Positions 40,350-44,893 of a stretch of DNA of 64,000 nucleotides are shown here, one piece after another. A model generated the notes under the pieces. It saw only the letters and a list, made by a program, of their open reading frames with translations. It was not told the origin of the DNA and made no database searches. A program made the translations under genes and the position numbers. The DNA is taken from assembly GCA_902547755.1 (NCBI GenBank), contig CACCPA010000010.1, positions 1-64,000 of the forward strand, written 5' to 3'. Source of the stretch: Halieaceae bacterium (GTDB lineage: Bacteria; Pseudomonadota; Gammaproteobacteria; Pseudomonadales; Halieaceae). The number at the start of each line of letters is the position of its first letter. Positions within the stretch are counted from its first letter, which is position 1.

Positions 40350-41636
40350 ATGCGCGACTTCTTTAAACTGCAGGAGCACGGTACATCGGTTGGACGCGAG
40401 ATCATGGCTGGTGCGACCACGTTCGCGGCCATGGCTTATATCCTCGTCGTCAATCCGCAGATCATGGCCATCGCGGGGATCGATCAGGGCGCGAGCTTTG
40501 TTGCAACCTGTCTGGCCGCAGCGGTGAGTTGCCTTCTGATGGGTCTCTACGCCAATTGGCCAGTGGGCTTAGCACCTGGCATGGGCCTGAATGCGCTTTT
40601 CGCCTATACCATCGTTGGTGACATGGGCTACCCATGGCAAACCGCACTGGGCGCCGTATTCATTGCAGGTGTGCTCTTTGTGATCATCAGCACCACACGA
40701 ATCCGCGCGTGGATCATCATGAGTATTCCGGACGATTTGAAGATCGGCATGACCGCGGGTGTTGGATTGTTCATTGGCATCATTGGTCTTCAGAACGGGG
40801 GAATCATCGCCGACCATCCGGCCACGCTCCTCACCATGGGTGACTTCAGTCAAATACCCACATCGCTTGCCGCTCTTAGCTTCTTGCTCGTGGCTATTTT
40901 GTCGGCACGATTGGCGGCGGGCGGTCTGATTCTGGGTATTTTTGCCGTAACTGTTTTGGGAATTTTACTGGGCGAGGTGACCTATCAGGGCATTGTCTCA
41001 GCACCCCCTTCGATCGCACCTTTGGTCGGTCAAATCGACATGATGGCGGCGCTTAACGTCTCCCTGGTTAGCGTCATCTTTTCGATCCTCATCGTGAACT
41101 TATTCGACACGACCGGCACTTTGGTGGGTGTCGCTTCAAATGCGGGCCTTGTCGACGAAGACGGTAATTACAAGAACTTCAGCAAAGCCTTAAAAGCGGA
41201 CAGTACGTCGAGTGTGCTCGGTGCTTTGCTCGGCAACTCGCCGGTGACTTCATACGTGGAGAGCGCGGCGGGTGTTGCCGCGGGTGGTCGAACAGGCCTG
41301 ACCGCTTGTGCGGTCGGCGCTTTCTTCCTGTTGGCCATCTTCTTTGCGCCACTGGCAATGATGATTCCTAGCTTTGCAGTCTCGGGTGCACTCATTTATG
41401 TGGCGCTGCTCATGTGCTCAGGGCTCGGACGCTTAAGCTGGGACAGCCCAGTCGTCCTGATCCCTGCTTTGCTCATTATGATCATGATCCCTCTGACGTT
41501 CTCGATTGCAGATGGCATCGGCATTGGGTTCATCAGCTATGTCGCACTCAGCTTGCTCGCGTCCGAGGAGCGTAAAGTGAGTTGGGGGGCGCTTGTGATA
41601 GCAGGATTATTCGTCGTCAAATTTGCGCTGCTCTAA
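40350..41636 (+). CDS. Purine permease (AzgA/PbuG branch of NCS2)
   Basis: The 428-residue protein has many helices and the AzgA-type motifs GATTFAAMAYILVVNPQI near the N-terminus, PVGLAPGMGLNALFAY, NLFDTTGTLVG and GNSPVTSYVESAAGVAAGGRTGLTA. It should import adenine, guanine or hypoxanthine with protons. A ribosome site GGGGTAGGG precedes the ATG. It converges on one phosphoribosyltransferase gene of a divergent pair, so uptake and salvage of purines sit together. Confidence 0.92.
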   Translation: MRDFFKLQEHGTSVGREIMAGATTFAAMAYILVVNPQIMAIAGIDQGASFVATCLAAAVSCLLMGLYANWPVGLAPGMGLNALFAYTIVGDMGYPWQTALGAVFIAGVLFVIISTTRIRAWIIMSIPDDLKIGMTAGVGLFIGIIGLQNGGIIADHPATLLTMGDFSQIPTSLAALSFLLVAILSARLAAGGLILGIFAVTVLGILLGEVTYQGIVSAPPSIAPLVGQIDMMAALNVSLVSVIFSILIVNLFDTTGTLVGVASNAGLVDEDGNYKNFSKALKADSTSSVLGALLGNSPVTSYVESAAGVAAGGRTGLTACAVGAFFLLAIFFAPLAMMIPSFAVSGALIYVALLMCSGLGRLSWDSPVVLIPALLIMIMIPLTFSIADGIGIGFISYVALSLLASEERKVSWGALVIAGLFVVKFALL

Positions 41637-41650
41637 AGCGACTTACAGCC

Positions 41651-41680
41651 GGACCACAACACTACGTTTTGATGTGGTCC
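41651..41680. terminator. Hairpin overlapping the end of the phosphoribosyltransferase gene
   Basis: GGACCACA (41651-41658) and TGTGGTCC (41673-41680) are perfect 8-base arms with a 14-base loop, placed between the convergent permease and phosphoribosyltransferase genes and overlapping the latter's stop. There is only a TTTT in the loop, so function as a terminator is uncertain. Confidence 0.35.
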
Positions 41681-42234
41681 TTGAGGATCTCAAAGAGCGC
41701 AGGCTTGTTTTCTCTAAGCTCGTCGGCGGTCAATCCCTGTATCTCGTAGGGGTACACGAGCCAGTCCTCATTCTCATACAGGTAGTAATCGGGTGTTAGG
41801 TCTACCTTGCGCCGACTGGGCTTGTAGTAGGGGGTAGCAACGCGAATGTCCCGGGGGATGTTCTGGCGTAATAGTTTGTGTAACCGATCAATGACTGCGT
41901 CAATCGTGCGGCCGGTGTCGAAGACGTCATCGACAATCAAGAGTTTGTCTTCGTGCGTGAGGCGTTTCACCAGATAGCTTAAGCCGTAGACTTCAACATG
42001 ACCTTTCTCTTGATCGATACCCTGTTTGTAGGACGAGGTTCGGATGGCGATGTTGTCAGTTTGAATGCCCGCGTAGGCAAGGATTTCCTGTACCGTGATC
42101 CCCACCGGTGCGCCGCCACGCCAAATACCCACAATGAAGGTGGGTTTGAAGCCGCTGTTTATGATTTGGGTACCCAATTGAAACGAATCGTTCAATAATT
42201 GATTAGCGGACAGGTATGTTTTCGTGGCGCTCAT
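41662..42234 (-). CDS. Purine (hypoxanthine/guanine) phosphoribosyltransferase-like protein
   Basis: The 190-residue protein is a type I phosphoribosyltransferase. The PRPP loop LLIVDDVFDTGRTID is intact with both acidic residues. FIVGIWRGGAPVG is the first PRPP-binding segment. The C-terminal DYYLYENEDWLVYPYEIQGL fits the xanthine/hypoxanthine PRT type. It should convert a purine base and PRPP to the nucleotide in the cytoplasm. It is divergent across 65 bases from a paralogue with a changed PRPP loop and convergent with the purine permease. Confidence 0.9.
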   Translation of the reverse strand: MSATKTYLSANQLLNDSFQLGTQIINSGFKPTFIVGIWRGGAPVGITVQEILAYAGIQTDNIAIRTSSYKQGIDQEKGHVEVYGLSYLVKRLTHEDKLLIVDDVFDTGRTIDAVIDRLHKLLRQNIPRDIRVATPYYKPSRRKVDLTPDYYLYENEDWLVYPYEIQGLTADELRENKPALFEILKDHIKT

Positions 42235-42299: not shown

Positions 42300-42881
42300 T
42301 TGGATCAAATGATCAAAAAAACCTTTGTTGAGGAAGAGACCTTACTCAATGATGCCTTCCGCATGGCCGTATCCGTCCATGAAAGCGGATTTGCACCCAC
42401 GTTTATTGTGGGCATTTGGCGCGGTGGCTCCTCCGTAGGCATATACGTGCAGGAATGCCTGCAGTTCCTGGGTGTCGAAAGCGACCACATCTCCATTCGC
42501 ACGTCCTATGCGGGGTTGCCCGAGTACCAAAAGTCGGTGGATGACCCATCGAGTATTCGTGTGCACGGACTGCAGTATTTACTCGAGAACCTGAATGCAG
42601 ATGATCGCTTATTGTTGGTTGATGATGTCTTTAATTCGGGATATAGCATCGAGGCCGTCATTACTGAGCTTCAGCAAAAGCTACGATTGAATATGCCGTC
42701 TGAGGTCAAAGTCGCAACCCCGTATTTTAAGCCCTCGAAAAACAAAACTGGCCGGTCTCCTGACTTCTATGTTCACGAGGTCGATGAGTGGCTGGTACTG
42801 CCCTATGAGCTGCAGGGCTTGAGTTATGATGAGATTGTCAATAACAAACCATCGATGGCGGGCATTTTGGAGCAACTATAG
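42300..42881 (+). CDS. Divergent phosphoribosyltransferase paralogue
   Basis: The 193-residue protein parallels its divergent neighbour over the whole length (FIVGIWRGGSSVGIYVQE, ATPYFKPSKNKTGRSPDFYVHE, PYELQGLSYDEI). Its PRPP loop reads LLLVDDVFNSGYSIE: the third acidic residue is Asn, Thr is Ser, and Arg is Tyr compared with the neighbour. Activity or base preference may therefore differ, or it may be regulatory. I use the TTG at 42300, because AGGA (42287-42290) stands 9 bases ahead of it, whereas ATG 42309 would be 18 bases away. Confidence 0.85.
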   Translation: MDQMIKKTFVEEETLLNDAFRMAVSVHESGFAPTFIVGIWRGGSSVGIYVQECLQFLGVESDHISIRTSYAGLPEYQKSVDDPSSIRVHGLQYLLENLNADDRLLLVDDVFNSGYSIEAVITELQQKLRLNMPSEVKVATPYFKPSKNKTGRSPDFYVHEVDEWLVLPYELQGLSYDEIVNNKPSMAGILEQL

Positions 42882-42981: not shown

Positions 42982-44100
42982 CTAATTGTGGGCTCGCGGC
43001 ATCCTATCGAGCTTCAGTTCATTCCAGACTGTCTCACTAAATGTTCGTTGGGGACTGTCTAGGGGAATGCCTGTACTGTCGGCGATTCTTACCATCCTTT
43101 GAAAGTTTGCAGCCACCGCAGCGGCGTCGACTACCACTTCCTGGCTGGAAGCGGCGGCGAGAGATTCTCTAAAGATACTGAGCGCATCTTCCTCGTCTCG
43201 TTTAGCGATTGACTCAGCAAAGGCAGCCAGCTCCGCTGACAAAGGAACGTCTTTCAGCGCATCGCGAGACTCCCCAGTAATAAGGTCCATATCGGATGAC
43301 GTTTCGTCGTGATTGACACTCAACCTGAGCATCATGGCGTGTGAGACCGTTCAGTAAAAGCAGTCGTTATATGAAGACACTCTTGCTGCGACAATTTCCA
43401 TCTGCGCCCTGCTGAGTGAGCGATCAAACTCTTGCTGCATGGTAGCGATGTCAGTCATCGACATATATTGGGCTTTCATGACAGCTACCCACTCGCGGAC
43501 GGCGTTTGGCACGAGACTAAGAGCTCTGTGTACGTTGGCTGTTCTGTTAATCCAAAGGTCTTCTTCGTGTCCAACCGCGCCGTCGGACGGAAGCATGGCG
43601 ACGAAGCCTGTTCCATGCGTGGCTTGCGGTGGTGAATACCTACTCGGTGACAGCGTGTCAGATGGTTCGGGGAGGGCTTCCAAGGGCAATCCTATTGCCC
43701 GATGAAACTCATCGATACTGAAGACCGTCACTGTGATGCCAACGAGTTCTACATAGGCTGCCTCAGATAAACCGTTCTCCCGAAGTTCGGTGACGTAGGA
43801 CTCCGTGATCCGCGCCTGATCGGTAATGACTTTATGAATTGCCTCGACCATAACGGGCGGTAGATCCGTCACCGCCGTATGCGATCCCGTGATAGAGCTT
43901 GGAGAAAGCGCATTTTTGCGCCGTAGACAAAGAGCGCAATCAAAAGCGGCTCTTGATTCTGCTGCTATCGCGATTCGTTCGCTCGCCGTAAACCAGGTTC
44001 CAGCAGCTGATAGTTGGCGCCAATAAACATTGAAGCATTCGGCCATAGCCGAGCGTATTTCAATATCGCGCGTTGCGTAGTCAAAAAATATACGGCTCAC
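42982..44100 (-). CDS. AhpD-family selenoprotein: one gene read through an in-frame TGA (Sec250, CxxU)
   Basis: Two open frames (44100-43351 and 43335-42982) are in the same frame, separated by TGA at 43353-43351 and five sense codons. Read through, they give 372 residues. Around the TGA the protein reads NDCFY-U-TVSHAMM: with C247, U250 and H254, plus E235, this is exactly the spacing of the AhpD active site (E-x11-C-x2-C-x3-H), with Sec in place of the second Cys. An N-terminal AhpD-like part has a second C55-A-L-C58 pair, and the C-terminus RMVRIADSTGIPLD also fits the family. A hairpin follows the TGA. AhpD proteins reduce peroxides by a thiol relay. The start is GTG 44100, with AGAGAGG 5 bases ahead. 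Main alternative: nonsense mutation. Confidence 0.82.
43315..43333 (-). promoter_or_regulatory. Candidate bacterial SECIS hairpin after the TGA
   Basis: On the minus strand GATGCTC (43333-43327) and GAGTGTC (43321-43315) pair over 7 bases (two G-T wobbles) around the loop AGGTT. The loop starts 24 bases after the last base of the TGA at 43351. The E. coli fdhF SECIS has an AGGUCU loop with conserved GU, so the AGGU here is the expected kind of SelB contact. The stem is short, as in other bacterial SECIS elements. Confidence 0.6.
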
Positions 44101-44227
44101 CACTACCTCTCTCAAGAATAAAGGTTATTGTCCCGGACCCGGAACAGCTTACCTCTACGTTCGCAGTATTGTTGAGAAATTACCGATTTTCAAAAAAAGT
44201 TGCGGAAGTTTGAACGCATGCCACGCA

Positions 44228-44893
44228 TCAGATTAAGTTATACCGCGCTCGGAGCTCGTCCAGTGACTCATCCCAATGGTTTTCCCAGTGAACAGGTAGT
44301 AATGGCTTAGCCGTACGACCTCTCATCCACCCTTCAGTAATAGCATCCATTACGAAAGGAAGCAGTTCAGGCTGATAAAGAACCATTTGCAGTGGGCGGC
44401 TCGCAATAATCATGGCCGGATAGGGCGCCGGCGCTTGAGCAACTGTAAAGCTGACGACCTTCACTTCGCCCAGCGGCGTCGTATCGTAACCGGTCAAGAC
44501 ATGAAATAAGTCATGAAGTTGAAAACCGCGTTCGGCCAGATGTCCCTCGTCCGTGCCACGCGACTTGTGAGCGGGTATGAAGTCGGACTCGCGGAGTAAA
44601 TTCGCATCTAATTCGTTGTCCTCTAAATAGTGCCAATACGCCCGTCCCAGACTTCCGCTTGGACATCGTTTTAACATGTCAATATCGGGTGACTCGCTCA
44701 AAAATCGATCGGAAAGCATGGACTCAGCGCCGGGACTAGATGCCATTAGACGAGAAAATCCGTCAAGTGCAGCGGGGTCTGCATGCTCCATGAATGTCAG
44801 TGTTAATGGGACTGAGGCACGTGGATCCCAACTCGCCAAGCTCTCGAGAAGCGCCTCTATCAACTCAGGTTTGAGATCGGAAGATTTCTGCAT
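44228..44893 (-). CDS. Coq4-family protein
   Basis: The 221-residue protein carries the Coq4 metal motif HD-x2-H-x11-E, seen as HDLFHVLTGYDTTPLGE. Flanking segments (LGRAYWHYLEDNELD, EVKVVSFTVAQAPAPY and a C-terminal EGWMRGRTAKPLLPVHWE) also fit the family. In eukaryotes Coq4 is needed for the decarboxylation/hydroxylation step of ubiquinone synthesis. The bacterial relatives are poorly studied and may act on other lipophilic substrates. It lies 127 bases upstream of the AhpD-like selenoprotein on the same strand and may be co-transcribed with it. There is no signal peptide. Confidence 0.85.
   Translation of the reverse strand: MQKSSDLKPELIEALLESLASWDPRASVPLTLTFMEHADPAALDGFSRLMASSPGAESMLSDRFLSESPDIDMLKRCPSGSLGRAYWHYLEDNELDANLLRESDFIPAHKSRGTDEGHLAERGFQLHDLFHVLTGYDTTPLGEVKVVSFTVAQAPAPYPAMIIASRPLQMVLYQPELLPFVMDAITEGWMRGRTAKPLLPVHWENHWDESLDELRARYNLI

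Follow-up and report, generated by a model that had tools for sequence, protein, structure and literature searches.

Related systems and the gene under study

The closest described relative of the gene studied here is "hypothetical protein 1" of the Sargasso Sea selenoproteome of 2005, in which four such sequences were reported with a selenocysteine insertion sequence (SECIS) predicted, according to a figure legend, and a redox role suggested from the motif (PMC1088965). A review of 2026 lists the corresponding family, NF041238, as "AhpD-related protein (hypothetical protein 1, Sargasso Sea metagenome)" with the motif CxxU, U being selenocysteine (Sec) (PMC13188914). We studied a gene on the minus strand of a 64,000-nucleotide stretch of Halieaceae bacterium DNA (contig CACCPA010000010.1, positions 1 to 64,000; hereafter the window) which, judged by its sequence, is a new member of this selenoprotein family catalogued since 2005. 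Very probably it is a genuine NF041238 selenoprotein in which two AhpD-like domains are fused, UGA is decoded as Sec with the help of a downstream hairpin, and the mechanism is one of thiol redox chemistry.

Fused pairs of AhpD-like domains are known from other proteins. In Sestrin2 a single catalytic Cys is found in the N-terminal domain, and the C-terminal one has no catalytic residues (PMC4674687); the sestrin C-terminal domain is described as lacking catalytic residues and having an acidic hinge (PMC11429811). Bacterial fused AhpD-like dimers, E. coli YciW among them, have been called sestrin-like; in two of these one domain no longer has its Cys, and the passage on them describes no Sec form (PMC11429811). 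In the literature searched, mainly papers free of subscription, we found none joining a bacterial selenoprotein, Sestrin and alkylhydroperoxidase.

Gene structure and family membership

The features of the gene, all on the minus strand, are as follows. Residues are numbered with TTG at 44115 as 1, five higher than a count from GTG at 44100.

42982 to 44100, minus: AhpD-related selenoprotein gene, GTG start and TAG stop, 372 residues including one predicted Sec, matching NF041238
43351 to 43353, minus: in-frame TGA, read as Sec (U255; U250 counted from GTG), TGA in 80 of 80 kept homologues
43339 to 43398, minus: putative active site of the C-terminal domain, E240-x11-C252-x2-U255-x3-H259
43927 to 43938, minus: C60-x2-C63 pair of the N-terminal domain
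43636 to 44088, minus: N-terminal domain, modelled as AhpD-like
43018 to 43620, minus: C-terminal AhpD-like (peroxidase-related) domain with the predicted Sec
43314 to 43334, minus: putative SECIS hairpin, spanning nt 17-37 past the TGA with a loop G at nt 26, core pairs kept and Leu263 codon nearly fixed

Under the standard code the gene falls into two open reading frames (ORFs), an upstream one of 254 amino acids (43351-44115, TTG start) and a downstream one of 117 (42982-43335, ATG start), the same two products that the first-pass annotation had expected of gene callers. It had taken them for a single frame split by the TGA at 43353-43351, and the sequence bears this out, the frame remaining open for the claimed 122 codons beyond the TGA. 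Translation likely starts at GTG 44100, with AGAGG (44110-44106) ending five bases upstream. From this start the read-through protein would have 372 residues and a mass of about 41.1 kDa, with Cys at positions 22, 55, 58 and 247 and Sec at 250 (GTG numbering). In the same numbering E235, C247, the TGA at 250, H254, C55 and C58 were all where they had been placed; the earlier count of one Sec and three Cys was one short, the protein having four Cys, of which the extra one, Cys22, was not conserved among homologues.

A true stop here, or a mistake in the assembly, would likewise leave two separate ORFs, and the gene would then be a pseudogene or encode two proteins. Membership of a known selenoprotein family argues against this. 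The read-through protein matched NF041238 (AhpD_rel_CFYUT, "alkylhydroperoxidase-related (seleno)protein") with 436.7 bits (cut-off 175), residues 20-372 covering profile positions 1-355 of 357, and the two ORFs scored singly matched adjoining parts of the profile, with 298.2 bits (positions 1-238) and 105.0 bits (245-355 of 357). The motif CFY-TGA-T in the gene is the CFY[U]T of the family, so that the full-length profile match, the CFYUT motif and the Cys-x-x-Sec arrangement are all shared with hypothetical protein 1. With C substituted for Sec, the protein also matched PF02627 (AhpD/carboxymuconolactone decarboxylase, CMD) with 24.8 bits (cut-off 23); its 51.1 bits with TIGR01926 (peroxidase-related) were under the cut-off of 81.8.

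Conservation of the TGA and of the downstream frame

When genome contigs were scanned, 198 relatives came up, of which 80 were kept and the other 118 were not examined; one of the two peptide patterns used specified a codon for Cys where Sec stands, which would favour Cys forms. All 80 kept homologues carried TGA at the Sec codon, which is the favourable outcome of a check named in the first-pass annotation and speaks against a miscalled base in this assembly as the source of the TGA. Five of the scan records were 89-96% identical, three of them from Halieaceae and the others from Gammaproteobacteria or Proteobacteria. Among 58 relatives the gene was present in seven genomes, all with TGA: five belong to the genus (our own, G016, G017, G019 and, with a fragment at the end of a contig, G026) and two, G039 and G047, to the order; a match in G055, 33% over 78 residues, was left out of this count. 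An order-wide sample had the gene in 17 of 390 genomes, with 19 copies and one in-frame TGA in each. In family f219 it occurred in 137 of 206 genomes, with up to five copies per genome and at least 150 copies altogether; each listed copy had at least one in-frame TGA (counted, not placed), one listed row having two TGA and another a TGA plus a TAG. The class sample (1/369) and the phylum sample (1/398) contained the gene in our own genome only. Fourteen control genomes gave a single family-model match, below cut-off, in Deinobacterium chartae, and the viral contigs, plasmids and phages searched gave no match to the family.

Neither the 80 kept loci nor the 19 order-sample copies included a Cys form. 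This statement is limited to the sequences examined, because for hypothetical protein 1 seven Sargasso sequences and five from complete genomes have been listed as Cys homologues (PMC1088965). A second in-frame TGA was observed in one locus (L059), at family position 154 in the interdomain linker, where at least 90% of an alignment of 57 had Gly; it could stem from faulty sequencing, from decay or from another cause.

The frame after the TGA is conserved as well. Compared with five close relatives (L018, L019, L020, L040 and L041), the ratio of nonsynonymous to synonymous substitution rates (dN/dS) was 0.07-0.16 for the part upstream of the TGA and 0.11-0.15 for the part downstream; three distant pairs, compared without gaps, were not used. 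The first-pass annotation had named decay of the downstream frame as a refuting result; the values point instead to purifying selection on it. In the C-terminal domain E240 was invariant in 86 of 86 loci and C252, U255 and H259 in 87 of 87, and in the N-terminal domain both C60 and C63 were invariant (86/86); a partial locus, L022, has no N-terminal part, hence 86 instead of 87. A pseudogene, an assembly error and a true stop were set aside on the conserved TGA, the conserved downstream frame and the dN/dS values, and we regard them as extremely improbable.

Selenocysteine machinery

In the genome that supplied the window, selA, selB and tRNA-Sec were consecutive on one contig (C25), all over cut-off, and ARAGORN reported a tRNA-SeC with anticodon tca. 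The first-pass annotation had pointed to the sel genes as a check; selA, selB and tRNA-Sec were present, and selD was not found in the incomplete assembly (see below). The gene and selA occurred together: in the order sample selA was found in 17 of 17 gene-carrying genomes versus 56 of 390 overall (hypergeometric p 4e-16), and among the 58 relatives in six of seven carriers, G026 being the exception, versus 21 of 58 overall (p 0.007), both p values ignoring relatedness. The first of these associations is a further point against a true stop or a pseudogene. The fetched DNA of six of the 87 loci itself contained selA (L023, as the next gene, L078, L087, L091, L097 and L107), five of the six also with a whole or partial selB match. 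On the sequence evidence, incorporation of Sec at the 43353 TGA is almost certain.

Putative SECIS hairpin

Codon use around the TGA was analyzed in 78 of the 87 loci, nine partial, duplicate or near-identical ones being dropped. The codon of Leu263 was CTC in 75 of 78 (entropy 0.24 bits), and nine other near-invariant Leu had entropies of 2.1-2.5 bits; judged from these codons, the near-fixation is not explained by the protein. At 21-33 nt past the TGA the RNA can form a hairpin, GCUC-loop-GAGY, one arm of which contains the codon of Leu263; its four core pairs hold in 79, 78, 79 and 79 of 79 sequences. Pairing is also preserved in the three CTT exceptions, through a double change in two cases, and the loop G was present in 76 of 77 sequences. 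In the seven-pair structure 89.5% of cells were paired, versus at most 63.1% in slid versions. Because of the codon constraint at Leu263 we read this hairpin as a putative SECIS. The codon directly before the TGA, that of Tyr254 (43354-43356), was TAC in 76 of 78 loci, so that C nearly always precedes the UGA; at two further near-invariant Tyr positions both TAC and TAT occur.

Domain architecture and structural comparison

The full-length predicted model had a mean predicted local distance difference test (pLDDT) value of 89.4 and a predicted template modelling (pTM) score of 0.91. When it was compared with known structures, Sestrin2 and AhpD-type proteins were the clear matches, Sestrin2 (human; 5t0n, 5dj4, 5cuf) being the best whole-model match and spanning both domains. 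In the model of the C-terminal domain E240, C252, U255 and H259 lie between two helices. The model of the N-terminal domain alone matched AhpD-type proteins at moderate Z; sestrin was not in that list, an absence which, according to the tool, excludes nothing. We predict from the models that the N-terminal half is a second AhpD-like domain with an invariant CxxC. A profile comparison of the two halves, extending over only 17 columns (E 0.056), laid the CxxC on the CxxU, and in this register Lys67 (Lys in 80 and Arg in five of 86) would stand where the AhpD His would be. Profile matches of the N-terminal half to chaperonins (E about 0.005) were taken as chance.

The C-terminal domain shares with the AhpD and peroxidase-related enzymes (TIGR01926; 6k40, 2prr, 3c1l, 2oyo) the modelled fold and the E-x11-C-x2-C/U-x3-H site, but the matched AhpD-type chains have about 140-200 residues, whereas here two AhpD-like domains appear fused and one dyad has Sec. 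Sestrin2 has two AhpD-like domains per chain, a feature shared on the model and not by a sequence match: sestrin was absent from the 23 PDB profile matches at E up to 10, and from the 25 listed of 26 Pfam families for 57 members. Unlike Sestrin2, the present protein retains both dyads, the C-terminal one with the predicted Sec, and its C-terminal domain keeps E240, C252, U255 and H259 where that of sestrins is non-catalytic. The YciW-type dimers also have two fused AhpD-like domains and are likened here by description, not by sequence. The passages on hypothetical protein 1 in the two papers on it give CxxU, SECIS and a possible redox role, and do not mention two domains or an N-terminal CxxC (PMC1088965, PMC13188914).

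Results weighing against the interpretation

Several results weigh against a functional selenoprotein of the proposed architecture. The best selD match in our own assembly (72% complete) had 26.5 bits, the cut-off being 125, and in G026 (62% complete), which carries the contig-end fragment of the gene, both selA and selD were under cut-off. Folding stability after the TGA showed no excess over shuffled sequences (mean z -0.28, 86 loci), the covariation score of the hairpin was matched by 104 of 500 shuffles, and no Rfam family reached its gathering score anywhere in the window. Foldseek gave a best E of 0.013 and no match at or below 0.001. As for selD, it was over cut-off in 15 of the 18 genus genomes searched (our own, 16 others with selA, and G026) and under it in our own, G026 and G031 only; because of this and of the 72% completeness, its absence is likely an assembly gap.

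Proposed mechanism

In AhpD the two active-site Cys have distinct roles, and the assignment of Sec and C252 is based on them. On the comparative evidence, SelA, SelB and tRNA-Sec would bring about Sec insertion at the UGA, with the short downstream hairpin as the guide. The Sec selenolate, at the position of the second Cys of AhpD, would attack an organic hydroperoxide or a disulfide; C252 would resolve the Sec intermediate as a selenenyl-sulfide, which would then be reduced by a cell thiol or by the N-terminal dyad. Sestrin2 is reported to reduce alkyl hydroperoxides through Cys125 (PMC4674687), and peroxide reduction is therefore plausible for the present fold. We somewhat favour thiol redox or peroxide chemistry of the proposed kind. 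A selenoprotein with a special substrate, for example one for reductive dehalogenation like Bmp8, a debrominase of CMD fold, seems improbable.

The part played by the N-terminal domain is less firmly assigned. Because Lys67 would stand in place of the AhpD His, its dyad may be a resolving site, a relay site or structural, and we put forward its role as internal electron donor tentatively. The first-pass annotation had suggested a two-domain relay, and of this the second domain is supported, by a CxxC conserved in all 86 loci and a modelled AhpD-like fold; electron transfer between the domains would be a further, conjectural step. A sestrin-like enzyme with both dyads active, the N-terminal Cys-x-x-Cys feeding the C-terminal Cys-x-x-Sec within the chain and the family depending so strictly on Sec that the genomes examined showed no Cys form, is a rather speculative extension.

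Genomic neighbourhood and a possible partner

One neighbour lies directly upstream of the gene:

44228 to 44893, minus: Coq4-like gene (PF05019, 76.1 bits, for the window protein only)

A similar ORF is found at this position in G016, G017 and G019. Across 80 loci no neighbour family occurred in more than 15. Five of the 87 loci (L021, L042, L045, L077 and L091), one of them the locus that supplied the query, contained peroxiredoxin- or thioredoxin-like ORFs with an in-frame TGA as U-x-x-C, two of them in L042; from their sequences these are probable further selenoproteins.

Because of these ORFs, the main rival explanation is that the protein is a selenoprotein that reduces a peroxiredoxin-like partner, as M. 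tuberculosis AhpD does for AhpC, and does not attack peroxides itself. In favour of such a role, the GOS selenoproteome study also notes a read on which selenoprotein genes for Prx-like 1 and AhpD-like 2, both of families other than NF041238, lie next to each other (PMC2398784). Against it, the other 82 loci had no such match, including the window gene (L017) with 1.5 kb on either side, in a search made of the loci only, partners elsewhere not being searched, and the neighbour families, as said, were not shared widely. We consider a partner role possible but unlikely, and retain direct attack by the Sec on a hydroperoxide or disulfide as the proposed mechanism.

A codon-score scan for other recoded TGA in the window gave no candidate and missed the known gene too; with relaxed settings the known site was fifth of 92, and the scan was uninformative. 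Further along the window, two divergent genes with phosphoribosyltransferase domains (41662-42234, minus; 42300-42881, plus) lie beside a xanthine/uracil-type permease (40350-41636), perhaps forming a purine salvage cluster.

Implications

Gene finders cut such genes in two and lose the catalytic residue; the full extent of the present one is now given. To what was known of the family we add a predicted two-domain fold, a second invariant dyad, a sign of a SECIS at codon level and the lack of a Cys form among the examined sequences. If both dyads were active in one chain and the family were strictly tied to Sec, bacteria would offer a model for sestrin-type folds in which each dyad works, and the enzyme would be one without a Cys fallback in its redox chemistry. 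As predicted, the family is a bacterial counterpart of the sestrin fold that bears Sec, and its fold, its second dyad and the want of a Cys form in the sequences examined make its chemistry testable.
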